A stretch of 43,819 nt of DNA from an uncultured Oscillospiraceae bacterium. Lineage in GTDB: Bacteria; Bacillota; Clostridia; Oscillospirales; Oscillospiraceae. Position numbers and translations under genes: made by a program. Where the stretch lies: contig CANQBA010000029.1 in assembly GCA_947589545.1 (NCBI GenBank), positions 1 through 43,819 of the forward strand, read 5' to 3'. Position 1 is the first letter of the stretch. Every line of letters begins with the position of its first letter. Shown one piece after another: positions 3,313 to 35,983 of the stretch. A model generated the notes under the pieces. It did not search any database and was not told the DNA's origin. It was given only the letters and a program-made list of their open reading frames with translations.

Positions 3313-4053
3313 TCACATCCCCGCGCACAGGCGCCGGAACCTCTCCCGTCCCTTTGCCGTGATGAGCGTTTGCAGGGGCATGGGACCCGACTTTCCCACA
3401 TACTCCCGGACCTCAAAGTAGCCGCGGTTTTTCTCCGACATGGGCATGAGCTTGTGGCGCTTGTCCCGGTAGACAAATTCCTGGCTCAGAAGCAGTCCGA
3501 TGAACTTGTCCTCCTTCACCTTCAAAAGCTTCGCCGTCTCCCGGAAGGTCGTCAGGTCGTTCCGTTCCATCATCGCGTTGTAGTGCTCCACCTTCGGCCT
3601 CGCGTCCTCCAGCGCCTCCAGGAGCGAGGCGTTGGCCGCTTCCAGCTCCCGGCGCTTGTCCCGCTCGTCCTTCAACGCGGTCAAGATCCTGATCCCGAAC
3701 TCCGGCTCGGCGATCGCCCGCCCCAGCGCCTCCGGCGTCATATACGCCCCGTGCCGGCGTATGGTGGGGATCACCTCATCGGCGATCTTCGCCTGGAACC
3801 GCTCCGCCGTCTCGTTCTTGGCCTTCATAGCCAGCCGGTAGAAGATGTTTTCGGGGATAAAGGCGTCTTTCCCCACTTCTGGGGAAAATCCAAGTTCATC
3901 CAAATATCCGGAAACACGTTCCCACTTGACGTATTCAACGCCATTCTTTTCTTGGGTGAACCCCAGCCCGCGGGCCACGGTCTCCAGCTTCAGGTAGGCG
4001 GTGCCGTCCCGCTCGTAGCAGTCGATCCCGTCGATGGTCATAATGTCGTTCAT
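3313..4053 (-). CDS. Phage antirepressor protein, 246 aa
   Basis: The two-domain architecture is typical of phage antirepressors. A Bro-N-like N-terminal domain (about residues 1-110) contains YLKLETVARGLGF and the FIPENIFYRLAMKAKN segment. A C-terminal KilA-C/ANT-like domain (about 150-246) contains TTFRETAKLLKVKEDKFIGL and ends in TLITAKGRERFRRL. Such proteins bind phage repressors or operators to favour lytic growth. The gene starts 4 nt before the end of the four-HTH regulator gene (ATGA overlap), so the two are translationally coupled. This supports a role in the same lysis-lysogeny switch. Confidence 0.85.
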   Translation of the reverse strand: MNDIMTIDGIDCYERDGTAYLKLETVARGLGFTQEKNGVEYVKWERVSGYLDELGFSPEVGKDAFIPENIFYRLAMKAKNETAERFQAKIADEVIPTIRRHGAYMTPEALGRAIAEPEFGIRILTALKDERDKRRELEAANASLLEALEDARPKVEHYNAMMERNDLTTFRETAKLLKVKEDKFIGLLLSQEFVYRDKRHKLMPMSEKNRGYFEVREYVGKSGPMPLQTLITAKGRERFRRLCAGM

Positions 4054-5033
4054 GTTGAACCTCCTTTTAGTATGATGATCGTGATGTCGTCGTCCGCCTT
4101 GCGCTGATACTCCGGATTCCCCGCGATGATCTCAACGATTTCAGCGGCCTTTTCCCGCCCCGCGTCGGTGAGCTTTTCACAGGCCTCCGCGATCCGCCGG
4201 AGGGGATCTCCGGCGGGGTGGGGTGCCTCCTCCGTATCCGCCAGAGAATAGAAGTCCACCCCCAACGCCTCCGCCATCCGCTTCAAGGTCTCGATTTTCG
4301 GACAAACCTTCCCGGATTCATACTTTCGAATCGCCGAATCAGCCATATCGCATTTTTCAGCTACCTGTTTCTGCGTCATGCCCTTTTCGATTCTCGTCTT
4401 ACGAATTTTTTCGCCTATGGTGGGGGCTACATCTCCGTCAAGAATGATGCTCTTGGGAATCTCGAAATAATCGGCCATCCGCTGGACTGCCTCCATACGT
4501 GGAACCTTTGTGTCGGCCTCCCAGGTGGAAACAGCCTTATCCGTGACCCCGGCGATCTTCCCCAGTTCCGTTTGCGTCATCCCATGAGATTCCCTTAACT
4601 GCTTAATATTTTCGCCGATGGTCGATGCCCGGACTTTCCGTCTCAGCAGATAATCGGTGCCGCACTGGAACAACTGGGCCATCTGCTCCAGCTTTGACTG
4701 CGGGATATTTCCCTTTGAGAGCCAGGAGTAAACTGTCTTCCTGGTGACCCCCATCTTCTCCGCGAAGTCCTCGTAGGTCATATTCCGTTTTGCTCGTTCC
4801 GCTTCTATGTTTGGAAACTCGCTCGGGAACTTCATTAAGTCACCTCCTGTTAGTAATTCCTCCGCCGGGATGCCCAGCACTTCCGTCAGTCTCTCGAGCT
4901 GCTTCAAAGAAGGAAGTATCTCGCCGGTTTCATATTTTGAGATAGTCGCCCGGTTGACTTTCAGCCTGTCAGCCAACTCAACTTGCGTCATGTGCAGCGA
5001 CTTCCTCGCTTCCCTGATGATCTCGAAATTCAT
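4050..5033 (-). CDS. Regulator with four tandem XRE/Cro-type HTH domains, 327 aa
   Basis: Four helix-turn-helix domains follow one another: about residues 1-60 (MTQVELADRLKVNRATISKY), 70-130 (YEDFAEKMGVTRKTVYSWL), 137-197 (MTQTELGKIAGVTDKAVSTW) and 206-265 (MTQKQVAEKCDMADSAIRKY). A tail follows, reading EKLTDAGREKAAEIVEIIAG. The tail is nearly the same as that of the divergent repressor at 5375-5743. The usual phage repressor has one such domain. An internal ribosome site, AGGAGGTGACTTA, precedes an in-frame ATG at 4835 (residue 67), so a shorter three-domain product may also be made. The gene overlaps its upstream neighbour by TAATG and the antirepressor by ATGA. It may be a fusion of ancestral regulators. 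Confidence 0.85.
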   Translation of the reverse strand: MNFEIIREARKSLHMTQVELADRLKVNRATISKYETGEILPSLKQLERLTEVLGIPAEELLTGGDLMKFPSEFPNIEAERAKRNMTYEDFAEKMGVTRKTVYSWLSKGNIPQSKLEQMAQLFQCGTDYLLRRKVRASTIGENIKQLRESHGMTQTELGKIAGVTDKAVSTWEADTKVPRMEAVQRMADYFEIPKSIILDGDVAPTIGEKIRKTRIEKGMTQKQVAEKCDMADSAIRKYESGKVCPKIETLKRMAEALGVDFYSLADTEEAPHPAGDPLRRIAEACEKLTDAGREKAAEIVEIIAGNPEYQRKADDDITIIILKGGST

Positions 5034-22991: not shown

Positions 22992-23011
22992 ATCAATTGT
23001 CCGAACATGGA

Positions 23012-23037
23012 AAAACCCCGGATTTCTCCGGGGTTTT
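23012..23037. terminator. Bidirectional terminator between convergent genes
   Basis: AAAACCCCGGA pairs with TCCGGGGTTTT around TTTC. Runs of A before and T after make it function on both strands, closing the rightward degV gene and the leftward five-gene operon ending at 23144. Confidence 0.8.
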
Positions 23038-23092
23038 CTGTTGTCTTGGCATGCGAAGCATCAAAATATTTAGAATTATTTTAAAATTATGC

Positions 23093-23121
23093 TTGACAAA
23101 TACTTAAGCGTGTGGTATAAT
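23093..23121 (+). promoter_or_regulatory. Perfect consensus promoter facing the end of a convergent gene
   Basis: TTGACA (23093-23098), exactly 17 bp, TATAAT (23116-23121). No ORF with a ribosome site lies behind it. Transcription would start near 23128 and run antisense into the 3' end of the DUF4340 gene (23144-24481). See findings. Confidence 0.6.
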
Positions 23122-23143
23122 ACGCATATAGGCAAAGCACCGG

Positions 23144-24481
23144 TCAGCCCAGGACGATGGAATTCACCGCCTCGATGAGGGTGACCACCGTGGAACGGGA
23201 CACCGTTGCCGCTGTCTCGCCGTTGACCTTGGCGGTGCAGAGGGAGCCGTCCAGGCGGTACAGCTCCAGGGTAAGGGTGGGGTGCGCCTCATCGCTCAGG
23301 CGGAGCGTCAGGCCAATCTCCAGCTTGCCCGCGGGCTCCTGGTCGGTGAAGCCGTGGGCGGAAAGGGCCTCCACGGCGGCCTCCAGGGAGGAGAAGGACG
23401 TCTCCTGGCCGTTCAGCGTCCAGACCGTCTCGCCGTCGCTGTTCTCGCTCTTTTCAAAGTCATAGCTCTCCCCTTCCAGCGTCACGGTAAGGCCCGTCAC
23501 CGTCTCAAAGGGCGCGGTGACAAGCTCCCTGTGGCGCAGGTCGTCATACCCGCACTGAGAAAGGAGGGTGTAGGTGTCAGGATCCAGGGAATAAACAAGC
23601 TTGCTCTCCCCTACGCGCAGATACGCCTTGGTCTCCTCCCCGCTGTCCTCCGGGGGCACGATTTGGGAGAGGGCCAGGGTCAGCGTGTCCCCCTCCTTGG
23701 GCGTGACCGTGACGGTCAGATCGGGCTCCGCAAGGCCATACTCGTCAAGCTCCTCGTCCGTGGCGTTGTAGGTCACATAATCGGTCAGCGTCAGGGACTC
23801 AAACCTGTCAAGCCAGTCCTCCACCCGGTCCGTATCCAAAGGCAGGCCGTCCGCTGTGAAGTACACGTCCTCGGGGCAATAGCTGTCGCCCTCCTCGTTG
23901 TACGTCGCGCTCATCTCCGCCGCGCCGGTCGCCGTGAAGGACGCCGGATCCAGGGCGGGGATGGTGTCGTGCCGGATCAGATCCGACAGCTCCACACCGT
24001 AGTCGTCCAGGGGGTCGTCCGCCACCAGGTACACTTTGCCGTCGCCGATGTCCACATAGCGCTGTTCATCCAGCGCGCTGTACGACCCCAGCTTCACCGT
24101 CGTCTCCGTCTCCCCTTGTGTGAGGTGGACGGTGCACGCCGGCTCTTCAAGGCCGTACTGCCCGTAGTCCGTCACGTCGTCGATGACAAAGGCGGCGGCC
24201 ATACTTTCAAAGGGGGCCAGGAGCTTCGCTATCTTCTCCTGATCCACAGGGAACGCCCCGTCGCCGTCCCAAAGCCAGTTGTCCTCCTTGTGGAAGGCAA
24301 GGCTCGTATCGCCGTTCGTCCAATCAAGGGCCGTCACGCTGTCGGCGGGGACGGCGAGGAACGTCTCGCCGGAGGTCTTGATGGCCTCCCGCCGCTCCCG
24401 CATATGGGAGACGGCGAAGGCGGCGGCCACTACGATCACCAGCACGCCCAGCAGAATAAAGACGCGTTTATACCGTTTCAT
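23144..24481 (-). CDS. DUF4340-domain membrane-anchored protein, 445 aa
   Basis: An N-terminal anchor (VFILLGVLVIVVAAAFAVSH) is followed by two or three repeated DUF4340-type beta-rich units outside the membrane. LAVPADSVTALDWTNGDTSL opens the first, and EEPACTVHLTQGETETTVKL and LAEPDLTVTVTPKEGDTLTL are corresponding strands in successive units. The family typically accompanies ABC systems like the GldA/F/G-like set upstream, but its molecular function is unknown. Its start overlaps the upstream GldG-like gene by 14 nt, and it is the last of five coupled genes. The downstream terminator is at 23012-23037. Confidence 0.8.
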   Translation of the reverse strand: MKRYKRVFILLGVLVIVVAAAFAVSHMRERREAIKTSGETFLAVPADSVTALDWTNGDTSLAFHKEDNWLWDGDGAFPVDQEKIAKLLAPFESMAAAFVIDDVTDYGQYGLEEPACTVHLTQGETETTVKLGSYSALDEQRYVDIGDGKVYLVADDPLDDYGVELSDLIRHDTIPALDPASFTATGAAEMSATYNEEGDSYCPEDVYFTADGLPLDTDRVEDWLDRFESLTLTDYVTYNATDEELDEYGLAEPDLTVTVTPKEGDTLTLALSQIVPPEDSGEETKAYLRVGESKLVYSLDPDTYTLLSQCGYDDLRHRELVTAPFETVTGLTVTLEGESYDFEKSENSDGETVWTLNGQETSFSSLEAAVEALSAHGFTDQEPAGKLEIGLTLRLSDEAHPTLTLELYRLDGSLCTAKVNGETAATVSRSTVVTLIEAVNSIVLG

Positions 24482-25904
24482 TTGTCAGCCTCCTTCTGCG
24501 GATCACAACGGCGATCCCGATGCCCAGAAAAGCCAGGGGCACAAGGCCGATCATCACCGTTTTCAGCACATTGGAGGCGGATTCGGAGATGGTCAGGTAG
24601 TTATAATTCAGGGATTTGGAGCGGATGGCCAGGGCCTCCCGCTCGCCGATAAGCTTGGAGAGGGCATTCATCACAAGGTCGCTGTTGGCCCCGGAGGAGT
24701 ATGCGTTATACATATCCTCCAGGAATTGGCCGCTCCCGAACCAGATGAGCTCCCCGCCCCCGTCGTCCTCGATATCCACCGCCAGAGCAAAGGGGCCGTC
24801 GATGTCGCCCTCCTCCTTCTCGTAGGTAGTAAGGTCAAAGCCGGCCAGCTTGCTGAAGGCCGCGTCGGAGGTGGTGAGAAGCTCCGTCACCGTGCCGTTC
24901 ACGTCGCCGCCGGTCACAAGGCCCTGGGCGATGGGCAGCATGGGGAAGTAGCGCTCCTCCGTCAAGGGCTCGGTAATCTCGCTTACGCCCAGATCCGGGA
25001 TGAGGATGAGGGGCTGTTGGAAGCCGTAGTGGGCCCGGTCGGCCTCCACGACGATGCCGTCTTGGGCGGTGACGCCGTAGTTTTCCAGCAGGGCGGTGAG
25101 ATTGGTCAGCGCCCCGTCCTCCACGGGCCCGGCCAGCACCAGGAGCTTGCCGCCGTCCTGGACGTACCCGGCCAGCATGGTCTTCTCCTCCTCAGAGATA
25201 TCGCTTTGCGGCGCGTAGATCATCACCGCGTCCGCGTCATCGGGGATCTCATCTACGGTGGCAAGGGTGAGCCCCGCCGTCTCGATATTCTCCTTGGCCA
25301 GCGTTTCGGCAAAGCCGCCGGGCAGCTCCGCCTCGCCGTGGCCCTCCACCAGGTACAGCGTGGGCAGGTCGTCGCTCGTGACGTAATCGATGGCGGAGGT
25401 GATGGCCCCCTCGCCGTCAAAGCTGGTGGTATAGGCGTAAGAGTAGTAATCCACATCCGTCACAAAGATGTCGTCATAGGCGATATACCGGCTCCGGTCG
25501 CCGCACTCCACCACCAGGGAGTTGTTTTGCGCCTGCTCGTCGGTATATTTCTCCACAAAGGTGGGGTACACGTCCGGGTTGCGCTTCACCACCGTCAGGT
25601 GGTCGGAGAGGCTTTCGTATTTCTCCAAAAGCCGCTCTAAGATGGTGTTCTCCTGATCGGCCTGGACGATCCAGTAGATAGTCACATCGTCCTCCAGGCC
25701 GTTGACGACCACCTTCGTGTTGCCGGTGACGGAGTAGAGCTTCCCGGCGGAGATATCCGGCTTGGTGGCCGTGGCGGGCAGGCTCTCGGCGAACACATTC
25801 ACCGCGATCAGGAGAGCCAGCACCACGGCGGTGATGATCAGGGAGTACACCCCGCCCCGGAGGGCCAGGGCGTTGCGCTTTAACTTTCCTGTTTCCTTTT
25901 TCAT
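24468..25904 (-). CDS. GldG-like ABC auxiliary protein, 478 aa
   Basis: This protein belongs to the ABC_transp_aux/GldG group: an N-terminal membrane helix (SLIITAVVLALLIAVNVFAE), a large extracytoplasmic domain resembling an inactive IFT52/glutamine-amidotransferase fold (ALAVDIEDDGGGELIWFGSG), and a C-terminal helix (VMIGLVPLAFLGIGIAVVI) ending in RRRRL. In Bacteroidetes GldG works with GldA and GldF in gliding. In Firmicutes homologous sets occur without gliding and have no established role. It overlaps the permease gene by one base (26-kb operon order: ATPase, permease, this gene, DUF4340). Evidence for the family is good, for function slight. Confidence 0.8.
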   Translation of the reverse strand: MKKETGKLKRNALALRGGVYSLIITAVVLALLIAVNVFAESLPATATKPDISAGKLYSVTGNTKVVVNGLEDDVTIYWIVQADQENTILERLLEKYESLSDHLTVVKRNPDVYPTFVEKYTDEQAQNNSLVVECGDRSRYIAYDDIFVTDVDYYSYAYTTSFDGEGAITSAIDYVTSDDLPTLYLVEGHGEAELPGGFAETLAKENIETAGLTLATVDEIPDDADAVMIYAPQSDISEEEKTMLAGYVQDGGKLLVLAGPVEDGALTNLTALLENYGVTAQDGIVVEADRAHYGFQQPLILIPDLGVSEITEPLTEERYFPMLPIAQGLVTGGDVNGTVTELLTTSDAAFSKLAGFDLTTYEKEEGDIDGPFALAVDIEDDGGGELIWFGSGQFLEDMYNAYSSGANSDLVMNALSKLIGEREALAIRSKSLNYNYLTISESASNVLKTVMIGLVPLAFLGIGIAVVIRRRRLTNETV

Positions 25905-26767
25905 CAGTTGTACCTCCGCTTCTCCAGGGACTGGACGGATAAAAAGAGGAAAAAGACGATGGCGGTCAGGTAAAAAATGACGCTTGTCAGGTCAAAGACC
26001 CCGTCCACAAAGGTATAAAACCGCTCAAAGAAGGAGAGCTTTTCCATAATCCCGGGCAGAAGCCCCTCCAACAGCTCCGGCTTGAAATACAAAACGCCGG
26101 AGAGGCCCAGGATCAGCACCACCGCCGCGCCGTAGGCCAGATTTGCGTTTTTCGTCATATACCAGATAAGCAGACACAGCAGAACGGCCAAAACCGCCAG
26201 GGCGGCGCCGGAACCCACGGTGGTGCGGGAGACGTACTCCGACAGGCTGACGCTGTAGTAGTTAAAAAGCATCACAGCCACGCCCAGTCCGGCGGCGAAG
26301 CCCTGATTTTCAGTGAGGGAGGAGATGAAGACGCCCAGGGCGATCAGCGCCGCGCCCATCAGGAAGAAGGCCCCGATGGAGCCGTAGGCGGTGGGCAGGT
26401 AAACGTCGCCGTACTGCGCGAAAATCAGCGGGTAGAGGCACACGATCAGAAGCGGAATGGCAAACAGGATCAGCAGCGCCAGGTATTTCCCCAGCACCAC
26501 CTGGGTGGTGGTGACGGGCAGGGAATAGATCAGCTGGTCGGTTTTCTGCCGCCGCTCCTCGGCTATGGTACGCATGGTCAAAAGCGGCACGATGATCGCC
26601 AGGATGATGGCGCAGTAGCCCAGCACATACTCAAAGTTGCTGACAGCCGCCTTCAGATTGTATTGGAGCGCCCCGATCCCCACGAAGCACAGCAGAAACG
26701 CGCCGAAGACCCAGGCGGTGAGGGAGTGGAAATGGGCCCTCAGTTCATGCTTCAGGATCGCCGTCAT
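25904..26767 (-). CDS. ABC-2 type permease (GldF-like), 287 aa
   Basis: This is the membrane part of the ABC system, with six predicted helices. Family signs are the N-terminal MTAILKHELRAHFHSLTAWV, then PLLTMRTIAEERRQKTDQLI, which is the cytoplasmic motif of this permease subgroup, and VLGKYLALLILFAIPLLIV. It starts 23 nt inside the ATPase gene and is coupled to it. Such permeases typically pair with one ATPase as a dimer; the GldG-like protein probably completes the complex. Substrate is unknown; the presence of htrA in the same transcript suggests an envelope function. Confidence 0.85.
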   Translation of the reverse strand: MTAILKHELRAHFHSLTAWVFGAFLLCFVGIGALQYNLKAAVSNFEYVLGYCAIILAIIVPLLTMRTIAEERRQKTDQLIYSLPVTTTQVVLGKYLALLILFAIPLLIVCLYPLIFAQYGDVYLPTAYGSIGAFFLMGAALIALGVFISSLTENQGFAAGLGVAVMLFNYYSVSLSEYVSRTTVGSGAALAVLAVLLCLLIWYMTKNANLAYGAAVVLILGLSGVLYFKPELLEGLLPGIMEKLSFFERFYTFVDGVFDLTSVIFYLTAIVFFLFLSVQSLEKRRYN

Positions 26768-27797
26768 GGCCGGTCGCCTCGCTTTCCTTAATTTCCTCCG
26801 CCGCGCCGTCCACCGGCGCGCTGTCCTCCGCGATACTGTCCTCCGGCGCGGGGAGGCCGGAGCCGTCCTTTTCCGTAAGCTCCAAAAAGACGTCCTCTAA
26901 GGTAGCCTTTTTGACGCTCATCTCCAGGATGGCCGTGTCCGCTTTGGCAAAGGCGCCGAAGAGGGCGCGGGTCATAGCGTGGGGGTCGCCGTCTCCGGCG
27001 GCCAGCCGGAAGGTGGAGACGCCCCCCTCCCCCGTGACCTCCAGGGCGTGAAGCCCCTCCACGGAGGCTACGATTTTCGCCGCCGTCAGGTCGTCCGCGT
27101 CCGCAATGAGCCGGATCTCCGTCTCCCCGGCCAGCTCCCGCTCCAGCTCCTCCGGCTTGCCCTGGGCCACAAGCCGGCCGTGGGCGATGATGAGGATCCG
27201 GTCGCAGACGGTCTGCACCTCGGAGAGGATGTGGGAGGAGAAGATGACGGTGTGGGTGCGGCCAAGCCGGCGGATAAGGTCCCGGATCTCCAGGATCTGG
27301 AGGGGATCCAGGCCCACCGTGGGTTCGTCCAGAATGATGACCCGCGGGTCGCCCAGGAGCGCCTGGGCGATGCCCACCCGCTGACGAAAGCCCTTGGAGA
27401 GGGCGCCGATGCGCTTATGACGCACCGGCTCGATGCCCGTGGCCTCAATGGCGGCCTCCAGCTCCGCCCGCAGACGCTCGCCCCGCAGGCCCTTGGCCTG
27501 CCCCACGAAGTGAAGGTACTCCTCCGGCGTCTCCCCCGGATACAGGGGCGGCTGTTCGGGCAGGTACCCGATGAGCTTTTTCGCGGCCTTCGGCTCCTCA
27601 AAGATGTCGTGGCCGTCGATGCTCACCGACCCTTCCGTAGCGGAGAGGCACCCGGTCATGATGTTCATGGTGGTGGATTTCCCCGCCCCGTTGGGGCCCA
27701 GGAAGCCGTAGACGTGGCCCTCGCCGATCTCAAAGGACAGGTCGCTGACGGCCAGGTGCCGGCCGTAGTATTTCGTCAGGTGACTTACGGTGATCAC
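26745..27797 (-). CDS. ABC transporter ATPase (GldA-like) with acidic tail, 350 aa
   Basis: The nucleotide-binding subunit. Walker A is GPNGAGKST (residues 34-42), the signature region LSKGFRQRVGIAQAL (133-147) and Walker B VIILDEPTVGLDP (153-165); the H-loop is in VIFSSHILSEV. A C-terminal regulatory domain follows, and the last 45 residues are an unusual acidic tail (EDSIAEDSAPVDGAAEEIKE), not part of the core fold. The ATG overlaps the htrA stop by 4 nt, and the gene's 3' end overlaps the permease. It powers the GldF/GldG-like membrane complex. Confidence 0.9.
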   Translation of the reverse strand: MITVSHLTKYYGRHLAVSDLSFEIGEGHVYGFLGPNGAGKSTTMNIMTGCLSATEGSVSIDGHDIFEEPKAAKKLIGYLPEQPPLYPGETPEEYLHFVGQAKGLRGERLRAELEAAIEATGIEPVRHKRIGALSKGFRQRVGIAQALLGDPRVIILDEPTVGLDPLQILEIRDLIRRLGRTHTVIFSSHILSEVQTVCDRILIIAHGRLVAQGKPEELERELAGETEIRLIADADDLTAAKIVASVEGLHALEVTGEGGVSTFRLAAGDGDPHAMTRALFGAFAKADTAILEMSVKKATLEDVFLELTEKDGSGLPAPEDSIAEDSAPVDGAAEEIKESEATGHDGDPEA

Positions 27798-29104
27798 AGC
27801 TCCTCGCCCTCCGATCTGCCCCGGACGGTATTGCCGCCGAAGGGCCAGAAAGCGTACTCCTCCTGTTCCTCCGCCGGGGCCTCACTGGCGGCGGAGGTGT
27901 TCTTCTCGTCCAGGGTGACGGCGAGGTTGACGCTCTCGCCCTGACGGGTGAGGGTGACGTTCACCGTGTCCCCGGCGCGCTTTGTTTTCACAGCCGTGAC
28001 CAGATCGTCGCCGGAGGCAATTGCCTTGCCGTCAAATTCGGTGATGACGTCGCCCACCTGGATCCCGGCCTTCTCGGCGCAGGAGCCGGATTCCACCGCT
28101 TCTACCGCCGCGCCGGCGGGGATGCCGTAGCGGCGCAGGGCGCTGGATACAGTGCTGACGGTGACACCCAGCTGGGGCTTGCCCGTCACATAGCCGTAGG
28201 CGATGATATCGGACAGCATGGCCTTCACGTCGTCAATGGGGATGGCGAAGCCCAGGCCCTCGGCGCTGACGCTGTTGGAGGCATTGGTAAACTTGGCGGT
28301 GACGATGCCCACCACACGGCCGTACGCGTCAAAGAGCGGGCCGCCGGAGTTGCCGGGGTTGATGGCGCAGTTGGTCTGGAGCATGTTCATGCTCTCCCCA
28401 TCCTCCGTGGCGATGACACGGTCAAGAGCGGAGACGCACCCGTCGGAGAAGGAGAAGGTCAGCTCCCCCAGGGGGTTGCCCACGGTGCACACCCACTGGG
28501 CCACCCGCAGGGAACCGCTGTCCCCCAGGGTGACGGGGGTCAGGCCCTGGGCGTCGATCTTGATGACGGCCACGTCGGCCTCCTCATCGCCGCCCACCAG
28601 CGTGGCGGTGTACCGGCTGCCGTCGGCGAAGGAAACCTCGATGGCGGCGCTGCTCCTGGCGGCCTCCTCAATGACGTGGTAGTTGGTGGCGATGTAACCG
28701 TCGGCGGTGAGCACGAAGCCGGAGCCGGAGGCGGCGGAGGTGGTGGTCTGGCCGAAAATGTTCACCGTGGTGGAGACGGTGATGCCCACGCAGGAGCCCA
28801 GCACCGCCTCATAGAGATCCTCGGCGGACAGCTCGCTCCCCGCCAGGGCGGACATATTCACCGGCGCGCTGGGGGTATCCCCGGTCAGTGTAGCCTCCGC
28901 GGGCGGGTTGAGCCTTGCGTAAAGGGCCGCGCCGCCAAGGCCGGAGACGCCGCACAGCAGGGCCAGCGCCAGCAGCAGGGCGGTGAATTTCAAAAGCTTA
29001 CCGTGACGGCGGGACTTCCTCCGGGGAACCAGGGCGGTCTCCCCGCTCCGGCTGTCCGCGCTCTCTTCCGCGCTCTCTATGGTGTATTCATATTTTTCAT
29101 CCAT
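27794..29104 (-). CDS. htrA: HtrA/DegP-type serine protease with membrane anchor and PDZ domain, 436 aa
   Basis: This is an envelope quality-control protease. Residues 1-35 are cytosolic, a membrane helix follows (about 38-62), then a trypsin-like domain with triad H143 (TNYHVIEE), D177 (EEADVAVI) and S253 (NPGNSGGPLF), then one PDZ domain (about 330-415). The ATG at 29104 has AAAAGGAG upstream; the in-frame start at 29203 would lie upstream of the promoter. It heads a five-gene operon whose other products form a GldA/F/G-like ABC system. The promoter carries the TGAA repeats at 29164-29200 and a small GGGGC-GAG-GCCCC hairpin sits in the leader beside the ribosome site. Confidence 0.9.
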   Translation of the reverse strand: MDEKYEYTIESAEESADSRSGETALVPRRKSRRHGKLLKFTALLLALALLCGVSGLGGAALYARLNPPAEATLTGDTPSAPVNMSALAGSELSAEDLYEAVLGSCVGITVSTTVNIFGQTTTSAASGSGFVLTADGYIATNYHVIEEAARSSAAIEVSFADGSRYTATLVGGDEEADVAVIKIDAQGLTPVTLGDSGSLRVAQWVCTVGNPLGELTFSFSDGCVSALDRVIATEDGESMNMLQTNCAINPGNSGGPLFDAYGRVVGIVTAKFTNASNSVSAEGLGFAIPIDDVKAMLSDIIAYGYVTGKPQLGVTVSTVSSALRRYGIPAGAAVEAVESGSCAEKAGIQVGDVITEFDGKAIASGDDLVTAVKTKRAGDTVNVTLTRQGESVNLAVTLDEKNTSAASEAPAEEQEEYAFWPFGGNTVRGRSEGEEL

Positions 29105-29146
29105 ATAAAACACTCCTTTTGGGGCCTCGCCCCTTTGATTGTCTCC

Positions 29147-29200
29147 ACTATACCCCCCGAACCTGAAAGAACCCTGAAAAATCGTTGAACTCTTTTTGAA
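29147..29200 (-). promoter_or_regulatory. htrA operon promoter with four 11-bp phased TGAA repeats
   Basis: The -10 is TATAGT (plus-strand 29147-29152). On the plus strand TGAA starts at 29164, 29175, 29186 and 29197, exactly 11 bp apart, the first two as CCTGAAA. The first repeat begins 11 nt upstream of the -10, occupying the place of a -35. The same arrangement is at 32384-32426 and 34345-34376. Phased direct repeats of one helical turn are typical of OmpR/PhoB-type response regulators. Confidence 0.75.
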
Positions 29201-29222
29201 CAAAACGTGGAAAAAATATGAA

Positions 29223-29253
29223 CACAGCCGGAAGACTCGTGCTCCCGGCTGTG
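29223..29253 (-). terminator. Terminator of the VTC operon
   Basis: CACAGCCGG (29223-29231) pairs with CCGGCTGTG (29245-29253); on the minus strand it is followed by TTCATATTTTTT. It separates the VTC operon from the htrA promoter. Confidence 0.8.
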
Positions 29254-29269
29254 AAAGGAAAAATCAATG

Positions 29270-30961
29270 TCAATGCTTGACCTTTATGGCGATGAAAATG
29301 CCCGCCAGCAGGAGAAGAGCGGAGACGCCCGTCAGCAGGAGCGCCCGGGGATCCGTGGAGGCGGTCTGGGGCTCCGTTTGGCCGCCGGTCTGCGTCCATT
29401 GGCCGTTCATACCCGGCCTCTGGGACCCCATATCGGGCCTTTGAACGCCCGACTGTCCACCCATATCGGGCATCTGACCGTCTGTCTGACCGCCCATGCC
29501 GGGGCGCTGTGCGCCAAGCTGGCCGTCCGTCTGCCCGCCCACATCGGGTATTTGACCGTCCGTTTGACCGTTCATGCCGGGGCGCTGGCCTCTGCCGCCG
29601 CCCATGCCGCCGAAGCCCCCGAAGCCGCCCATGCCGCCAAAGCCCGAGGCGGACTGGTTGGTGACGGTGACAACCGTCTCGGCGCCGTCCACGGACAGCG
29701 TCACGGCGTCCCCCACCGCAAGGCCCGGGGTGCTGAGGATCAGGCTGGAGAAGGCACAGGGGACGGTTTCGCTCAGGAGCGTATTGCCCTGGGCGTCGGT
29801 CAAAACGACCTCCGCCCCCGCCGCACCGCTGACGGTCTGGGACACGAAGCCCTGGGGGGAGGCGGCGTCGAAGCTCTCCGCCATCATGGCCGAGCCGGCG
29901 GCAAAAACGGCGCCGCCGGAGATCAGGCACACGCCGCCCGTCTCGGCCCCGGCGTCCAGGGCCGCGTTCCCGCCGGTGTCGGACAGGCTGATGAACACGC
30001 TCCCGCCGGTGATATAGATACTGCCGTTGGAGTCCAGGCCGTCCGCGTCCCGGCCCGTCTCGTTGACGACGCGGACACTGCCGCCGGAGACGGTGATCAC
30101 GGAGCCTGTCTCCTTGGCGTTGAAGCCGTCGTCCTGGGGCCGGATGTCGATGCTTCCGCCGGCCACGGCGATCTGCTGGCCCTCCACACCCTCATAGCAG
30201 GCGGGGACGGTGAGTGTGCCGGACTCCATGTAGAAGAAGCCGGTCAGCGCGTCGTTGGAGACGGTGACGCCGTCGTCCCCGGCGTTTACGGTGATTTCCG
30301 CATCCCGGATCCGCACGCTGTCGTTGGCGTGAAGGCCGTCCTGGGCGGCGGTGATGTCAAGGCGTCCGCCGGCGATCACCAGATCGTCGTTGCCCACGAT
30401 GCCGTGGCCGGCGCTCTCCACCGTCAGGGAACCGGAGCCGTTTACAGTCAGGTCGTCCCGGGAAAAGACGGCCCCATCCACGCCGGAGGCGGTATCGGTG
30501 AAGCTTTGGGAGACAAGGCTGTTCTCCGTGCCCTCCTTAAGCGTCAGGAACACCTTTTCCGCCTGCTCTATCTCCAGGGCCGCGCCGTCCGGGTTCGTTA
30601 CCGAGGCCCCGGCCAGGCACAGCCAGATCTTATCGGTATTCTGGGCGTCGATCAAAATCCGGCCGCCGTCCAGCGTCCCTGTGACCGCGTATCTGCCCGC
30701 CGAGACGATGTGGACGGCCCCGTCCAGGAAGTACGCCCCGCCGGAGATCTCCGCGCCGGCTCCCGTGAGGGTCACGGTATACGCGCCGGCGGTGTCCCAG
30801 GCGCCGTCCAGGTCGTTCTCCGTAAAGTACCCCTCCCCCGTGTCGCCGTCGCCGGCGGGGGTGAGGCCCAGGGCCGCGCCGTTCATGAATAGGACGGTGA
30901 GGATCACTGTCAGGGCCGTGATGACGGCGCAGATCGCGTCGATTCGTTTGCTCCCGGCCAT
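29270..30961 (-). CDS. Cthe_2159/DUF4353-type surface carbohydrate-binding protein, 563 aa
   Basis: A cell-surface protein. An N-terminal membrane/signal segment (AICAVITALTVILTVLFM) precedes a long right-handed beta-helix domain (about 30-400) with repeating strands such as DDLTVNGSGSLTVESAGHGI and DDLVIAGGRLDITAAQDGLH, as in the polysaccharide-binding protein Cthe_2159 of Clostridium thermocellum. A glycine-rich stretch and a low-complexity region (about 455-530) built on QRPGM, GGQTDGQ and PDMGGQ units follow. A final helix (LLLTGVSALLLLAGIFIAI) anchors the C-terminus; no LPXTG motif is seen. The start at 30961 has GGGGTGA upstream. Together with VTC and DUF4956 it forms a recurrent Firmicute gene set. 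Confidence 0.8.
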   Translation of the reverse strand: MAGSKRIDAICAVITALTVILTVLFMNGAALGLTPAGDGDTGEGYFTENDLDGAWDTAGAYTVTLTGAGAEISGGAYFLDGAVHIVSAGRYAVTGTLDGGRILIDAQNTDKIWLCLAGASVTNPDGAALEIEQAEKVFLTLKEGTENSLVSQSFTDTASGVDGAVFSRDDLTVNGSGSLTVESAGHGIVGNDDLVIAGGRLDITAAQDGLHANDSVRIRDAEITVNAGDDGVTVSNDALTGFFYMESGTLTVPACYEGVEGQQIAVAGGSIDIRPQDDGFNAKETGSVITVSGGSVRVVNETGRDADGLDSNGSIYITGGSVFISLSDTGGNAALDAGAETGGVCLISGGAVFAAGSAMMAESFDAASPQGFVSQTVSGAAGAEVVLTDAQGNTLLSETVPCAFSSLILSTPGLAVGDAVTLSVDGAETVVTVTNQSASGFGGMGGFGGFGGMGGGRGQRPGMNGQTDGQIPDVGGQTDGQLGAQRPGMGGQTDGQMPDMGGQSGVQRPDMGSQRPGMNGQWTQTGGQTEPQTASTDPRALLLTGVSALLLLAGIFIAIKVKH

Positions 30962-30965
30962 CCCG

Positions 30966-31637
30966 TCACCCCATGTACTCGCCGTTGTAGCTGACAAGCG
31001 CCGCGCTCCTGACACCCGCAAGGGTGGAAAGGGCGTTCACAAAGCCGGTGTCGCCGTCCTTGAGGCGCACGTCGTAATTGACCTCGATCTGGCCGGGACG
31101 CACGGTCTTGCTCTTGACGCGGCACAGCTTCGTGGCGTTTTGCAAAAGCTCCCCGGCCCGCCGCTCGCTGTCCTGCCCGTCGCAGGAGAGCACCAGGATA
31201 TAGGGGTCGGCGTGGGACTTGCGGTTGACGAACACCAGCAGGATGACGCCGATGATGACGCTGCCGATGACCGCCAGGGGGATCATGCCCGCCGCCAGGA
31301 CGATACCGGCGGCGATGGCCCAGAAGAGGAAGGCGATGTCCAGCGGCTCCTTGATGGCCGTGCGGAACCGAACGATGGACAAAGCGCCCACCATGCCCAG
31401 GGACAGCACCACGTTGCTGGTCACCGCCAGGATGACCAGGGTGGTGATCATCGTCAGGGCGATAAGGGTCACGCCGAAGGAGGTGGAGTACATCACGCCC
31501 TGATAGGTCTTTTTATAGACCAGAAAGATGAATACGCCCAGGCCGAAGGACAGGACAAGCGCCAGGGCCATATCCAGGACGCTCACCGCCGTCACGTTCT
31601 CCAGAAAGCTGGATTTGAAGATGTCCGAAAAAGTCAT
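30966..31637 (-). CDS. DUF4956 membrane protein, 223 aa
   Basis: The N-terminal two thirds hold four or so membrane helices (VSVLDMALALVLSFGLGVFI, TLIALTMITTLVILAVTS, IPLAVIGSVIIGVILLVFV) with the family signature MVGALSIVRFRTAIKEPLDI in a loop. The last 80 residues form a soluble ferredoxin-like domain. DUF4956 proteins are regularly next to VTC-domain proteins, and a role in membrane-coupled polymer synthesis or export is suspected, not shown. GGGAGGAAACAACA precedes the ATG. The stop lies 4 nt before the surface-protein start, so the two are closely linked. Confidence 0.85.
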   Translation of the reverse strand: MTFSDIFKSSFLENVTAVSVLDMALALVLSFGLGVFIFLVYKKTYQGVMYSTSFGVTLIALTMITTLVILAVTSNVVLSLGMVGALSIVRFRTAIKEPLDIAFLFWAIAAGIVLAAGMIPLAVIGSVIIGVILLVFVNRKSHADPYILVLSCDGQDSERRAGELLQNATKLCRVKSKTVRPGQIEVNYDVRLKDGDTGFVNALSTLAGVRSAALVSYNGEYMG

Positions 31638-31675
31638 TGTTGTTTCCTCCCGATTATTTTATCCGTATGACCGTT

Positions 31676-32356
31676 TTATCCGTAAATTCTGCTTTGCGCG
31701 TATTTGGAGAAGGCCCCCGCCCGCCGGCCGGGAAGCTCCAGGATGTCCCGGACGGTTCGGGGCAGGAAGCTGTCCCATTTGACCTCCAGGAGCGCCGGAT
31801 CCCCCGGCACCGGGACGGTGACAAGGCCCGGATCCAGAAGATCCGTGGCGGACAGGCCCGTGCGTATGCCGTAGTCCAGCGTCACCCGGACGCCGCCGGG
31901 GCCGTAAACAAAGGGCTCCCGGGTATAGTCCACTACGGTTTTGGGCCGCAGGCCCTCCGTGGTCATCTTGACGTAGAGCTCCCGCACAAGCGCGCGCCCG
32001 TCCTCCCGCATCCAGAGGGTGTCGCCGCGAAGAAGCCTCTCCGTCTCGGCGTATGTCAGCTCCGCCGTCTGCTTATTGCCCAAGCCGGCCAGCTTCAACT
32101 TTTTCTCCAGGTGGATGAGGGACGTGTCGCCGTTATATAAGCGCAGTCTGAACTTCTCCCGGCGGGAGACGCCGTCCAGCTTTTCCCGCAAAGCCCTGTC
32201 CGTGGGCGTCTCAAAGTAGAGACTGCGGATCAGATACCGGCCGTTCACCGCGTGGGGATCCGGCTCCAGCACCGCCCGCAGACGCTGACGGAGGATCAGC
32301 CTGTCGGCGGCGTTGATCTCAAATTTCCATTCGTGTCTCAGCTCCATATTCTCCAT
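31676..32356 (-). CDS. VTC-domain protein (polyphosphate polymerase-like), 226 aa
   Basis: This is a cytosolic tunnel-fold (triphosphate tunnel) protein related to the catalytic domain of yeast Vtc4, which makes polyphosphate from ATP. Matching segments are NGRYLIRSLYFETP, REKFRLRLYNGD, LIHLEKKLK, KTVVDYTREPFVY, RVTLDYGIRTGLS and ALLEVKWDSFLP, which supply the basic and acidic residues lining the tunnel. Length is normal for bacterial forms. The ATG at 32356 has GGGGAGGTGAACAC upstream. It is the first gene of a three-gene operon. Bacterial VTC proteins are not all proven polymerases, so activity on polyphosphate is likely but unproven. Confidence 0.85.
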   Translation of the reverse strand: MENMELRHEWKFEINAADRLILRQRLRAVLEPDPHAVNGRYLIRSLYFETPTDRALREKLDGVSRREKFRLRLYNGDTSLIHLEKKLKLAGLGNKQTAELTYAETERLLRGDTLWMREDGRALVRELYVKMTTEGLRPKTVVDYTREPFVYGPGGVRVTLDYGIRTGLSATDLLDPGLVTVPVPGDPALLEVKWDSFLPRTVRDILELPGRRAGAFSKYAQSRIYG

Positions 32357-32383
32357 GTGTTCACCTCCCCGCTGTTTGCGGTC

Positions 32384-32426
32384 ATTATACTAAGCCAGGC
32401 TGAAAGGAACCTGAAAAGGAAATGAA
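32384..32426 (-). promoter_or_regulatory. VTC operon promoter with three 11-bp phased TGAA repeats
   Basis: The -10 is TATAAT (plus-strand 32384-32389). Plus-strand TGAA starts at 32401, 32412 and 32423; the first is 11 nt upstream of the -10, as in the htrA promoter. No good -35 hexamer is present, so activation by a bound regulator is likely. The region begins 17 bp downstream of the histidine kinase stop. Confidence 0.8.
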
Positions 32427-32442
32427 CAATTTGTAAACACCC

Positions 32443-33648
32443 TCAGCCCGCCGTGGGCAGCTCCACGAGGAAGGTGTTGCGCCCCTCGGCGCTCTCCGCC
32501 CAGATCCGGCCCCGGTGCTCCGTGACGATCTCCCGGGCGATGGCAAGGCCCAGGCCGTAGCTGTCGTCCATGGCTCTGGCCTTGTCGGCCCGGTAGAAGC
32601 GCTTGAAGATATCGGAAAGCTCCTCCTTGGACAGCGCCGCTCCCGGCGTCGACACGGCCAGTACGCACCGGCGGCCCTGCTTCCCCAGGCGCACCGTGAC
32701 GGTTCCCGGCGCGTCGGCATACTTAAGGCCGTTGTCCAGCAATATTTCCAGCGTCTGGCGCAGATGCGGCGGCGAGCCGTTCACCCGGATCCCCGGCGTA
32801 AGCTCGCTCTCCAGGGTCAGTCCCCGCTCAAAGTAGAGGGGCTCAAAGGGCAGCAGGGCCTCCTCTATAAGGGCGGAAAAATCCAGGCGCTCCATGGTCT
32901 TCTCCACCGCGCCGTTTTCCACCCGGGTCAAATCGAGTAAGCTCCCCACCAGGCCCCGCATCCGGTTAGCCATGGTGAGGATATCGCCGGCGTACCGGGC
33001 CTTCTGCTCCTCCGTAGCCGCGGGGGAGCCCAGCAGCTCCGCGTCGGTGAGGATCACCGCCAGGGGCGTTTTCAGCTCGTGGGAGGCGTCGGCCACGAAT
33101 TGCCGCTGCTGCTCCCAGGCCCGCTCCACGGGCCGGACGGCCCAGCGGGCCAGAAAGAGGCTGATGAGGAAGAAGGCCGCCAGCGCCACAGTGCCGATGG
33201 CAAGGCACGTCCGCACCAGATTGGTCAGGGTGGCCCGCTCGCTGGAGATGTCCGCGAAGACCACGCACTCCCCCCAGACGCTCCTGCCGAAGCAGTAGCG
33301 GAAGCCGTAGGTCGGCAGGTCCCCCATCTCCTGTCCGTCGGCCCTGGCGGCCTCCAGAAGCTCCGACAGCATCGCCTGGTCGGTGAGGTCGAAATGACCG
33401 CTTACCGCCGCCAGACTCCCGTCCGGGCCGAACTGGAGTACGAAATAGGGCAGCTGGATCCGGTCATTGCGATCCCCCGGCCGCCACATCCGCATGGGCT
33501 CCGCCGCCACGGATCGGAGCATCTGGACGCTCTCCTCCCGGAGATCCCGGCTGGTGATGCCGTACACCAGGCCGAACATGACAAGCAGAACCGTCAGCAC
33601 AAGGCCCATGTTGATGGCGATAAATTTGGCTTTCAGCTTTCCGAGCAC
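32443..33648 (-). CDS. Sensor histidine kinase, 401 aa
   Basis: A membrane kinase partnered with the response regulator upstream. Two helices (about 9-31 and 149-167) flank an extracytoplasmic sensor of about 115 residues, then a short HAMP-like linker, a HisKA domain with H190 (ADASHELKTPLAVI) and an ATPase domain with N306 (LLDNGLKYA) and FKRFYRADKAR. The G1 box reads STPGAALSKEEL, so the usual Asp or Asn of DxGxG is replaced. The last glycine box is SYGLGLAIARE. The start overlaps the regulator gene by 16 nt. The sensor domain is not a known type; the regulon suggests it senses envelope state. Confidence 0.9.
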   Translation of the reverse strand: MLGKLKAKFIAINMGLVLTVLLVMFGLVYGITSRDLREESVQMLRSVAAEPMRMWRPGDRNDRIQLPYFVLQFGPDGSLAAVSGHFDLTDQAMLSELLEAARADGQEMGDLPTYGFRYCFGRSVWGECVVFADISSERATLTNLVRTCLAIGTVALAAFFLISLFLARWAVRPVERAWEQQRQFVADASHELKTPLAVILTDAELLGSPAATEEQKARYAGDILTMANRMRGLVGSLLDLTRVENGAVEKTMERLDFSALIEEALLPFEPLYFERGLTLESELTPGIRVNGSPPHLRQTLEILLDNGLKYADAPGTVTVRLGKQGRRCVLAVSTPGAALSKEELSDIFKRFYRADKARAMDDSYGLGLAIAREIVTEHRGRIWAESAEGRNTFLVELPTAG

Positions 33649-34319
33649 GGTTTTTTCACCTCCAGATGGTACCCCAGCCGCCGCGCGGAGACGATCTCCA
33701 CGTTGGAACCGATGGCCGCCAGCTTCTTGCGCAGAAAGCCGGCGTAGACCTCCACGTGGTTCTCCACTGCGTTGGAATCAAAGCCCCAGACGCGGGCCAG
33801 GATCGTCTCCTTGCTGAGATTCCGCTCCCCCGCCTGCATCAGGGCGCGCATCACGTCAAATTCCCGGGCCGAGAGCCTGACCTCCCGCTCCCCGCAGATC
33901 AGCGTGGAGGTGGACAGATCCAGGGACGTGTTGCCGTAACGCAGCTCGTCCACCTCGTTGCCCTGCCGCCGCAGGAGGGCGTTGACGCAGGCCAGCAGCT
34001 CCCGGGAGTCGAAGGGCTTCGTCAGGTAGTAGTCCGCCCCGGCGTTGAGGCCGGCGATCCTGTCCTCAATGGCGCTCCGGGCCGTCAGCATCAAAATCGG
34101 CGTGGCGTTGCGCTTGGCCCGCACAGCCCGCGCCACCTCCAGCCCGTTCATGCCGGGCATCATCACGTCCAGGATCAGCAGATCGTAGACCCCGGTGAGG
34201 GCGTAGTCCGCGCCGGATTCCCCGTCGTAGACCGCTTCGGCCTCAAAGCCCTTGTCCCGCAGAAGATCCGCCAGGGCGTTGGCCAGCATTTTTTCATCCT
34301 CAATGATCAAAATCTTCAC
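33633..34319 (-). CDS. OmpR/PhoB-family response regulator, 228 aa
   Basis: The receiver domain (1-120) has the phosphorylation site D51 (LLILDVMMPG), T79 and K101 (YLTKPFDS), and the winged-helix DNA-binding domain (about 130-225) has LSAREFDVMRALMQ and ENHVEVYAGFLRKKL. The start is the GTG at 34319 with GAGGAGGGGAATACC upstream; the apparent ATG at 34346 lies inside the -10 region and cannot be used. The gene's promoter and those of the VTC and htrA operons share 11-bp phased TGAA repeats, so this protein is the natural candidate for binding them and controlling its own synthesis. Confidence 0.9.
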   Translation of the reverse strand: MKILIIEDEKMLANALADLLRDKGFEAEAVYDGESGADYALTGVYDLLILDVMMPGMNGLEVARAVRAKRNATPILMLTARSAIEDRIAGLNAGADYYLTKPFDSRELLACVNALLRRQGNEVDELRYGNTSLDLSTSTLICGEREVRLSAREFDVMRALMQAGERNLSKETILARVWGFDSNAVENHVEVYAGFLRKKLAAIGSNVEIVSARRLGYHLEVKKPCSES

Positions 34320-34344
34320 GGTATTCCCCTCCTCTGTCCTTATC

Positions 34345-34376
34345 ATAGTACCATGTCAAGCTGAAATGAAGCTGAA
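34345..34376 (-). promoter_or_regulatory. Promoter of the two-component operon with TGAA repeats
   Basis: Plus-strand TGAA starts at 34362 and 34373, both as GCTGAAA, 11 bp apart. A -10 of TACTAT (plus-strand 34345-34350) gives the same 11-nt spacing to the first repeat as in the other two promoters; TATGAT (34342-34347) is an alternative. The arrangement indicates autoregulation. Confidence 0.7.
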
Positions 34377-34394
34377 AACTGTAAACTTTTTCGC

Positions 34395-34421
34395 AAAAAA
34401 ATCCCACCGGAGCCCGGTGGG
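34395..34421 (-). terminator. Terminator of the S-layer-homology gene
   Basis: CCCACCGG (34403-34410) pairs with CCGGTGGG (34414-34421); on the minus strand a run of seven T follows (plus-strand 34395-34401). It lies directly upstream of the two-component promoter. Confidence 0.85.
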
Positions 34422-34447
34422 AGGGATATGTATGGGGAAGGCGGCTT

Positions 34448-35902
34448 TCAGGCAAAAAGGGCATACGCGCGGGTGATGACGGCGGCGTATTCAGCCCGGG
34501 TAGTGATCCCTTCGGGGGCCAGGAGGCCGTCACTGCCGTTGATGACGCCTGCTTTGACGGCCCAGCTCATGGCGGTGACGTAGTCGGCGCCCACGGCGGC
34601 CCAGTCCGGGAACAGCTCCAGGGAATAGCCGTCGTCGGCGGGGCCTCCCACGGCCTTCCAGATCATGTAGACCAGCTCCTGCCGCTCCAGGGTGTCCGCC
34701 GGGCTCTTTCCGAAGGTAAGTCCGGCCTCCTCCGCCCAGCTCATGCCGGCGGCGTACCAGGGGTCGCCGGAGGTGTCGATCCCCAGGCGTCTGGCCAGAA
34801 CGGTGGCGGCCGAGCCCAGATCCATGGGCTTATCCGGGGCGAATTGCCCCTCGCCCACGCCCGTCATGATGCCGTGGATGAACACGAAATCCACATAGGG
34901 CGTGGCCCAGTGGCGCAGGGGGACGTCGGTGAAATCGGAGACGGAGCAGTTGACGGCGATATCGCCGGGCATGCCAGCGCCGGCGCTGGCCTCCATGAGC
35001 TTTTTCCAGCCGCTGGCGCTGCCGGTGAAGGTGACGGAGGCCAGGGCGGCGCACCCGGCAAAGGCGTCCTTGCCGATCTTTTCAAGACTGGCCGGAAGCG
35101 TCGCGTGCCGCAGGGCCTCACAGCCGGCGAAGGCCCGCTCCCCCACGGTGAGGACGCCGTCGGGCAGGGCGACGCTCTCCAGCTGGACGCAGTTTTCAAA
35201 CGCGCCGGCGCCGATGGCCGTCACGCCCCTGCCGTTGACCTTCGCCGGGATATTCGCCGCCTGGATATAGCCGTCGGCGTCCTTGACGACGCCCAGGGCG
35301 GCGTCAAGGTAGATGTTTCCGCCGTCCATGGTCAGCACGGCCTCGCCGTATCCGGCCATGACTTTGGCGGAATCCTCCACGGAGGCGGCGTAGGGCAGGG
35401 CCTCGGGATCCTTGGAGCAGACAAGCAGGAAGCTTTCGCTGAGGACTTCCTCCCCGTAGACGAGCCGGACGGTCTCAGCCCACGCGGTGTAGAGGGGCAG
35501 CTCACCCGGCGCGTAGAGATACCAGACCTCGTCGGGGGCGGGCCCCACGGGCTCCACGTTGTAGACTTCGCCAAGAATCTCGTCCTTGCCCGCCGGCCCC
35601 ACCTCCAGGGTGGATCCCATGCGCTCACAGGTCATCTTCCAGGCGCCGGGGCCCATCCGCTGGATGTCCCGGAACGCGCCCTCATAGGCCCATTGGTTGT
35701 AGGAATCCACATCCTCGTCATAGCCGCTCCCCTCAAAGGCTCCGCCGGCGTGCAGGGTGAGCTTTCCGGCCCAGGCGCCCGTGCCGCTTAAGTAGTCGAA
35801 GGTGAGGCTGTCAAAGGGAAGGGACTCCCCGGCCGACGCGGTCGCGGCAAGGCCGCACACAAGCGCCAGCGCCAGCAAAAGGGAAAAGACCCGTTTTTTC
35901 AT
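34448..35902 (-). CDS. Secreted leucine-rich-repeat protein with S-layer homology domains, 484 aa
   Basis: A signal peptide (KRVFSLLLALALVCGLAATASA) leads to an unknown beta-rich domain (about 30-210). A short BspA-type leucine-rich repeat block follows (GVTAIGAGAFENCVQLESVA, VGERAFAGCEALRHATLPAS, IGKDAFAGCAALASVTFTGS). Three S-layer homology modules close the protein (DVPLRHWATPYVDFVFIHGI, WYAAGMSWAEEAGLTFGKSP, FPDWAAVGADYVTAMSWAVK). S-layer modules hold proteins non-covalently on the cell wall. The ATG at 35902 has AGGAGGAACCTT upstream; the in-frame extension to 35983 overlaps the promoter. A role in surface adhesion or carbohydrate contact is inferred. Confidence 0.85.
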   Translation of the reverse strand: MKKRVFSLLLALALVCGLAATASAGESLPFDSLTFDYLSGTGAWAGKLTLHAGGAFEGSGYDEDVDSYNQWAYEGAFRDIQRMGPGAWKMTCERMGSTLEVGPAGKDEILGEVYNVEPVGPAPDEVWYLYAPGELPLYTAWAETVRLVYGEEVLSESFLLVCSKDPEALPYAASVEDSAKVMAGYGEAVLTMDGGNIYLDAALGVVKDADGYIQAANIPAKVNGRGVTAIGAGAFENCVQLESVALPDGVLTVGERAFAGCEALRHATLPASLEKIGKDAFAGCAALASVTFTGSASGWKKLMEASAGAGMPGDIAVNCSVSDFTDVPLRHWATPYVDFVFIHGIMTGVGEGQFAPDKPMDLGSAATVLARRLGIDTSGDPWYAAGMSWAEEAGLTFGKSPADTLERQELVYMIWKAVGGPADDGYSLELFPDWAAVGADYVTAMSWAVKAGVINGSDGLLAPEGITTRAEYAAVITRAYALFA

Positions 35903-35954
35903 AAGGTTCCTCCTGTTCCCGCAAAAAGGTCGTAAACAAACAGTTCTCGATCCT

Positions 35955-35983
35955 ACTATACAGGATTTTCCCCACTTTGTCAA
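35955..35983 (-). promoter_or_regulatory. Promoter of the S-layer-homology gene
   Basis: TTGACA (plus-strand 35978-35983), 17-bp spacer, TATAGT (plus-strand 35955-35960). The -35 begins only 2 nt beyond the stop of the upstream GH3 gene, with no terminator between, so GH3 transcripts may read through into this gene. No TGAA repeats are present, so it is not part of the neighbouring regulon. Confidence 0.75.

Follow-up and report, generated by a model that had tools for sequence, protein, structure and literature searches.

The three phased repeat arrays in the leftward gene cluster at 23144-34319 are, with high confidence, putative binding sites of the response regulator encoded in the same cluster, and would define a self-regulated, CiaR-like envelope-stress regulon. 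The targets would be the regulator and histidine kinase genes themselves, the htrA operon with its Gld-like ABC system, and the operon encoding the VTC-domain protein, the DUF4956 protein and a carbohydrate-binding protein. Envelope or secretion stress is probably the signal perceived by the histidine kinase, which would phosphorylate the regulator; regulator dimers would then occupy direct TTTCAG repeats spaced by one helical turn, at the usual location of a -35 element. The bound regulator is predicted to recruit RNA polymerase to promoters without a good -35, as suggested by the geometry of the sites and by the precedent of CiaR; operation may resemble that of streptococcal CiaRH, with a distant kinship. 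Judged from sequence comparison, the repeat-tagged gene set is probably real, and binding by the cluster regulator, activation and the stress signal are what we infer from the same comparison.

All ten genes of the cluster lie on the minus strand of the window, which is the whole stretch of DNA analysed (43,819 nt). The response regulator (33633-34319) contains a receiver (Response_reg) and a winged-helix Trans_reg_C domain, both above the Pfam cut-off, in agreement with its earlier assignment to the OmpR/PhoB type, and has the recognition helix HVEVYAGFLRKKL. Pfam matches further identified a membrane histidine kinase (32443-33648; HisKA and HATPase_c), a polyphosphate-polymerase-like VTC-domain protein (31676-32356; VTC), a DUF4956 protein (30966-31637), a Cthe_2159-type carbohydrate-binding protein (29270-30961), an HtrA-type serine protease (27794-29104; Trypsin_2 and PDZ_2), an ABC ATPase (26745-27797), an ABC permease (25904-26767), an ABC_transp_aux protein (24468-25904) and a DUF4340 protein (23144-24481). 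The best NCBIfam names of the three ABC genes were those of the GldA-GldF-GldG ABC system (GldA for the ATPase, GldF for the permease and GldG for the auxiliary protein), all with scores below the curated cut-offs. Terminator-like hairpins upstream of the regulator promoter (34402-34422) and at the boundary between the VTC operon and htrA (29223-29253, minus strand) fit separate transcripts. None of the predicted hairpins lies in the interval from the kinase gene to the VTC gene, and read-through from the kinase gene into VTC is possible. Directly upstream of the regulator promoter, beyond the hairpin, is a gene encoding an SLH and leucine-rich-repeat protein (34448-35983, minus strand). A perfect TTGACA-N17-TATAAT promoter with an extended TG (23093-23121, plus strand) is directed rightward toward the 3' end of the DUF4340 gene and is possibly antisense.

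Read in the sense of the genes, TTTCAG-N5-TTTCAG is present at three promoters, with the end of the motif 10 nt upstream of the -10 box. The core is TTTCAGGGTTCTTTCAG followed by TATAGT (29147-29152) for htrA, TTTCAGGTTCCTTTCAG followed by TATAAT (32384-32389) for the VTC operon, and TTTCAGCTTCATTTCAG followed by TACTAT (34345-34350) for the regulator gene, all on the minus strand. The nine TGAA units at 11-bp steps described in the earlier note (29164, 29175, 29186 and 29197 at htrA; 32401, 32412 and 32423 at VTC; 34362 and 34373 at the regulator gene) are all exact. TGAA runs stepped by 11 bp occur nowhere else in the window on either strand, which bears out the claim that no other promoter carries the repeats, and runs at the remaining steps of 5-20 bp are never longer than two. 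The numbers of repeats given per promoter were exact for the units named, but the htrA array is longer than claimed, with a degenerate unit TGGA at 29208 and a further TGAA at 29219, both in phase. The htrA array (29163-29223, minus strand) thus comprises two TTTCAG repeats, GTTCA at phases -1, -2 and -4 and a degenerate unit at -3, corresponding to about three predicted dimer sites. At the VTC promoter a fourth phased unit, GTTTA (32434-32438), completes an array of two TTTCAG repeats, GTTCA and GTTTA (32400-32438, minus strand; two predicted dimer sites), and the regulator gene has the TTTCAG-N5-TTTCAG pair (34361-34377, minus strand; one predicted dimer site). The assumption of TACTAT as the -10 of the regulator gene is plausible at 10 nt, but TATGAT (34342-34347) at 13 nt is also a candidate; in the relatives L073 and L074, TATGAT/TATTAT is found exactly 10 nt from the repeat at the regulator gene. 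The claimed absence of a good -35 held: a scan of the minus strand from 23000 to 35000 for sigma-70-type promoters yielded none whose -35 was usable.

That the repeats arose by chance, or are kept only via neighbouring operons or recently duplicated sequence, is hardly credible. In first-order Markov windows the mean number of TGAA runs of two or more was 0.73, a run of at least three occurred in 0.15% of 2000 simulations and a run of four in none. Few genomic matches had been expected for CTGAAA-N5-CTGAAA, and the 3.83-Mb source genome contains three exact ones, all at these promoters and on one strand. The backwards-read pattern likewise occurs three times in the genome (2+1), and the bare-pattern count (3 vs 3) was dropped as proof; because the reversed pattern is equally frequent, position and not count was taken as the signal. 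When a -10 box was required and up to two mismatches were allowed, 11 genome matches were obtained vs 7 for the reversed control, namely the three known promoters, one match with one mismatch (on C27) and seven with two. The one-mismatch match lies inside open frames and was rejected as an additional regulon member. An N6 spacing was unsuitable as a control (108/150 genomes matched vs 85/150 for N5) since its 12-bp period falls in codon phase, and was replaced by the out-of-frame spacings N7 and N8 with a -10, which, together with the simulation and the other-spacing controls below, speak against chance.

Within the genus, 11 of 33 other genomes contained a regulator ortholog with 75% identity or more. 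The pair was found upstream of the regulator gene in eight of these 11, upstream of linked VTC genes in 4/4 (one with TTTAAG as the second repeat) and upstream of linked htrA genes in 7/7. In genomes G018 and G021 the VTC and htrA genes are on other contigs than the regulator genes and the pair is still present, indicating that the motif follows the target genes and not mere neighbourhood; no VTC or HtrA match was found within the 17.6 kb examined around the G018 regulator, and no regulator or kinase match within the 10.5 kb examined around VTC and HtrA of G021. The conservation in relatives that the earlier note looked to was thus observed upstream of the same genes, also where these are unlinked. 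The claim of self-regulation fared less evenly, as the pair was present at the regulator gene in 8/11 genus genomes and at 59/80 protein-selected loci (at most two mismatches) but missing in 3/11 (G021, G015 and G024) and 21/80. The pair has been lost from the regulator promoter of G021 but is retained at the targets. Judged by the presence of sites, self-regulation is not universal and can be lost. G015 and G024, whose regulator promoters have no repeats, share a TTTCAG-N5-TTTCAG pair located 12 nt from TATACT and away from the regulator promoter (L347, G015:C21:6363; L348, G024:C1:36915).

For loci beyond the genus, selection was by regulator protein and not by DNA: of 589 regulator relatives the best 80 were kept, which by title belong to Oscillospiraceae, Ruminococcaceae, Lachnospiraceae and others, including Flavonifractor plautii, Ruminococcus flavefaciens and Acetatifactor muris. 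In Flavonifractor plautii ATCC 29863 (L277), the regulator gene and the ABC operon both carry the site. A pair was scored if it lay no more than 200 nt upstream and had no more than one mismatch. Matches starting after residue 15 and genes too near the locus end were dropped before counting, as were weak matches (regulator, kinase and ABC ATPase below 45% identity, HtrA below 30%). Among these best 80 of 589 loci, the pair was observed at operon heads, namely regulator 47/80, VTC 19/21, ABC ATPase 18/20 (here the head of the Gld-like ABC operon) and HtrA 1/1. At the same loci and threshold, no pair was found at the genes for the kinase (0/43), DUF4956 (0/19), permease (0/16), ABC_transp_aux (0/16) and DUF4340 (0/15) proteins, 0/109 in total, or for the carbohydrate-binding protein (0/2). 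Control ORFs (at least 150 aa, non-overlapping with homologs) had the pair in 3/757 cases; with two mismatches allowed, ABC_transp_aux reached 1/16 and the control ORFs 12/757. The best of four alternative spacings gave 3/80 for the regulator and 2/21 for VTC at one mismatch, and at the regulator promoter 59/80 loci had the pair at the 11-bp spacing when up to two mismatches were allowed, compared with 1-6/80 for spacings of 8-10 and 12-16 bp. Cases of HtrA outside the genus were few (one locus of the best 80 of 589, plus 2/130 sites of the DNA search). This operon-head conservation across genera and the retention of the motif at unlinked genes largely refute chance and neighbourhood as explanations.

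The cluster regulator is regarded as the binder because exact sites occur only at these promoters and the pair stands at operon heads, not at internal genes, and because repeats at the regulator gene go with a VE[VA]Y...RKKL helix, which is unique among the 18 OmpR-type DNA-binding domains of the source genome. With this helix, repeats were present at 60/83 protein-selected regulators, with VW-type helices at 3/7, with other helices at 0/14, and at one regulator with an unparsed helix they were absent (0/1). The number of OmpR-type domains in the genome leaves room for another regulator of this type as the binder, with the cluster regulator merely one of its targets, and the target sites kept in G021, where the cluster regulator's promoter has none, would suit such an arrangement. 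We consider it very unlikely, as the helix is absent from the remaining 17 domains and the repeats at the regulator gene track it (60/83 vs 0/14). Mapping the motif label onto a tree of 77 sequences required 10 changes vs a mean of 24.4 in shuffles, in a sample with some sequences picked via the motif, only some own-genome paralogs and unsettled bootstrap values; the motif appears clustered on the tree yet gained or lost several times. Three genus genomes (G005, G004 and G003) encode regulators with VWVY-type helices, 43-45% identical to the window regulator and preceded by TTTAAG-N5-TTTAAG (L021, L023 and L024), which are perhaps a second CiaR-like paralog.

In a family-wide search by DNA pattern alone, the repeat with a -10 at an allowed gap of 9 to 11 nt was found in 114/400 genomes and 47/106 genera, and the two out-of-frame spacing controls in 14/400 genomes. 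A total of 130 sites were examined (126 of 150 among the matches listed and 4 unlisted), and the gap was 10 nt at 124 of them. Downstream genes were assigned with a second gene-calling rule, the first having left many sites without an ORF. At 96/130 sites the first downstream gene encoded a protein resembling one of the ten from the window (blastp, E ≤1e-5), comprising regulator 42, ABC ATPase 24, VTC 12, carbohydrate-binding protein 10, DUF4340 3, HtrA 2 and kinase, permease and DUF4956 1 each. Resemblance here does not imply orthology, as the lowest identities are about 25% and L228, counted among the 42 regulators, is only 29% identical. The same gene families were thereby recovered in other genera from the DNA pattern alone. 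At 30/130 sites the first gene was unlike all ten proteins, and at 4/130 an ORF was absent. Pfam naming of 10 representatives of the 30, in a scan that left out six singletons, gave an HlyD-type fusion protein (cluster of 9), SLH/beta-helix (3), PPIC foldase (3), NPCBM-associated domain (2) and methyltransferase RlmA (2), and as singletons subtilase, a penicillin-binding protein, sulfatase, Maf and one without assignment. The Maf and RlmA sites may be chance. The HlyD-type fusion, SLH/beta-helix, PPIC foldase, penicillin-binding-protein and sulfatase loci (including L207, L191, L214, L193 and L212) are in other genera. In a phylum-wide search, TTTMAG pairs were present in 74/398 genomes.

The few genomic matches, the conservation in relatives, the retention at unlinked genes and the DNA-only search are mostly in favour of the reading of one motif as one regulon. 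The regulon appears to span the Oscillospiraceae and the Lachnospiraceae, and its predicted targets include VTC/DUF4956 and Gld-like ABC operons. The ten-gene composition proposed earlier holds in the source genome and near kin, but other genomes keep subsets and add different genes. Regulon members in other genera would be predictable from DNA alone, with membrane-fusion/efflux, foldase, penicillin-binding-protein and sulfatase genes as candidates.

CiaR as the closest known system and the graded arrays described below are additions beyond the earlier note. CiaR of Streptococcus binds TTTAAG-N5-TTTAAG, with the first half refined to NTTAAG, was searched for with 10 nt to the -10, and has the recognition helix VVEVYVSKVRKKL (PMC3091779); it controls htrA and feeds back on its own genes (PMC3091779, PMC8317062). 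Both systems combine an OmpR-type regulator with a direct hexamer repeat, an N5 spacer, an 11-bp period and 10 nt to the -10, and this site geometry was observed at all three window sites. In a comparison limited to the helix, which ends in VEVY....RKKL in both, 8/13 residues are identical between the window regulator (HVEVYAGFLRKKL) and CiaR (VVEVY[VI]SK[VI]RKKL). Shared features, judged here by the presence of sites, are an htrA target and a site at the regulator's own promoter. In contrast, the window hexamer is TTTCAG and that of CiaR TTTAAG (NTTAAG); among 63 relatives, position 4 was C in 58 and A in 4 for the first repeat, and C in 44 and A in 19 for the second. The system is called CiaR-like and is not filed as CiaRH because the exact site differs and the comparison covers the helix, the site features and the htrA target. 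VTC/DUF4956 and Gld-like ABC operons are not among the CiaR targets given in the available text of PMC3091779 and PMC8317062, the arrays of the present system are longer and phased, and the bacteria are different; CiaRH was described as apparently absent outside streptococci, judged by the kinase (PMC3091779).

CiaR also represses one target, manLMN (PMC8317062), and the arrays adjoin the core promoter, so that the sites might be operators for repression by the same regulator. This is unlikely, given the lack of a usable -35 in the scanned region and the 10-nt gap at nearly all sites examined, which equals the distance used to find CiaR-activated promoters (PMC3091779). The proposed regulon would extend CiaR-like logic beyond streptococci and make the repeats a conserved regulatory code for gut bacteria.

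Two-component control of htrA-type proteases is also found in the CssRS and CutRS secretion-stress systems, and CssR of Bacillus subtilis recognizes direct octamer repeats. The CutR site is TAWATAAA (PMC12802291), unlike the TTTCAG repeats of the present system. For the VTC operon, known groups of VTC/polyphosphate polymerase, DUF4956 and CotH are located beside pel or with CotH (PMC7112168). The polyphosphate polymerase gene adjoins DUF4956 in both, whereas the third gene here is of the Cthe_2159 type, and TTTCAG regulation is not described in the available text of that source. No earlier description of this regulon was found among the open-licence literature listings examined. If VTC/DUF4956 and Gld-like ABC operons share a stress regulon with HtrA, this would suggest where to seek their function.

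To describe the arrays upstream of the core, half-sites (TTCA or TTTA in phase) were scored. In the genus, half-sites occupied phases -1, -2 and -4 in 8/8 htrA promoters and phase -3 in 0/8, phases -1 and -2 were filled in 5/5 VTC promoters, and the regulator gene had them in 1/9 at -1 and 0/9 at -2. Array length therefore appears graded and conserved in the genus, from about three predicted dimer sites at htrA through two at VTC to one at the regulator gene. In the family, the corresponding counts at -1 and -2 were 2/42 and 1/42 for the regulator gene (background rate 0.006), 8/24 and 6/24 for the ABC ATPase, 4/12 and 4/12 for VTC (12/36 and 10/36 for VTC and ABC ATPase pooled), and 0/2 and 2/2 for HtrA. 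Tentatively, and with some doubt, the arrays might encode a fixed 3/2/1 hierarchy in which the protease responds most sensitively or most strongly and self-amplification is damped, with the VTC/DUF4956 machinery placed in envelope-stress defence; the order of induction would hypothetically be set by array length.

At a distance from the cluster, a 327-aa protein with four HTH_3 stretches (4050-5033, minus strand) adjoins a phage-antirepressor-like Bro-N/KilAC protein (3313-4053).
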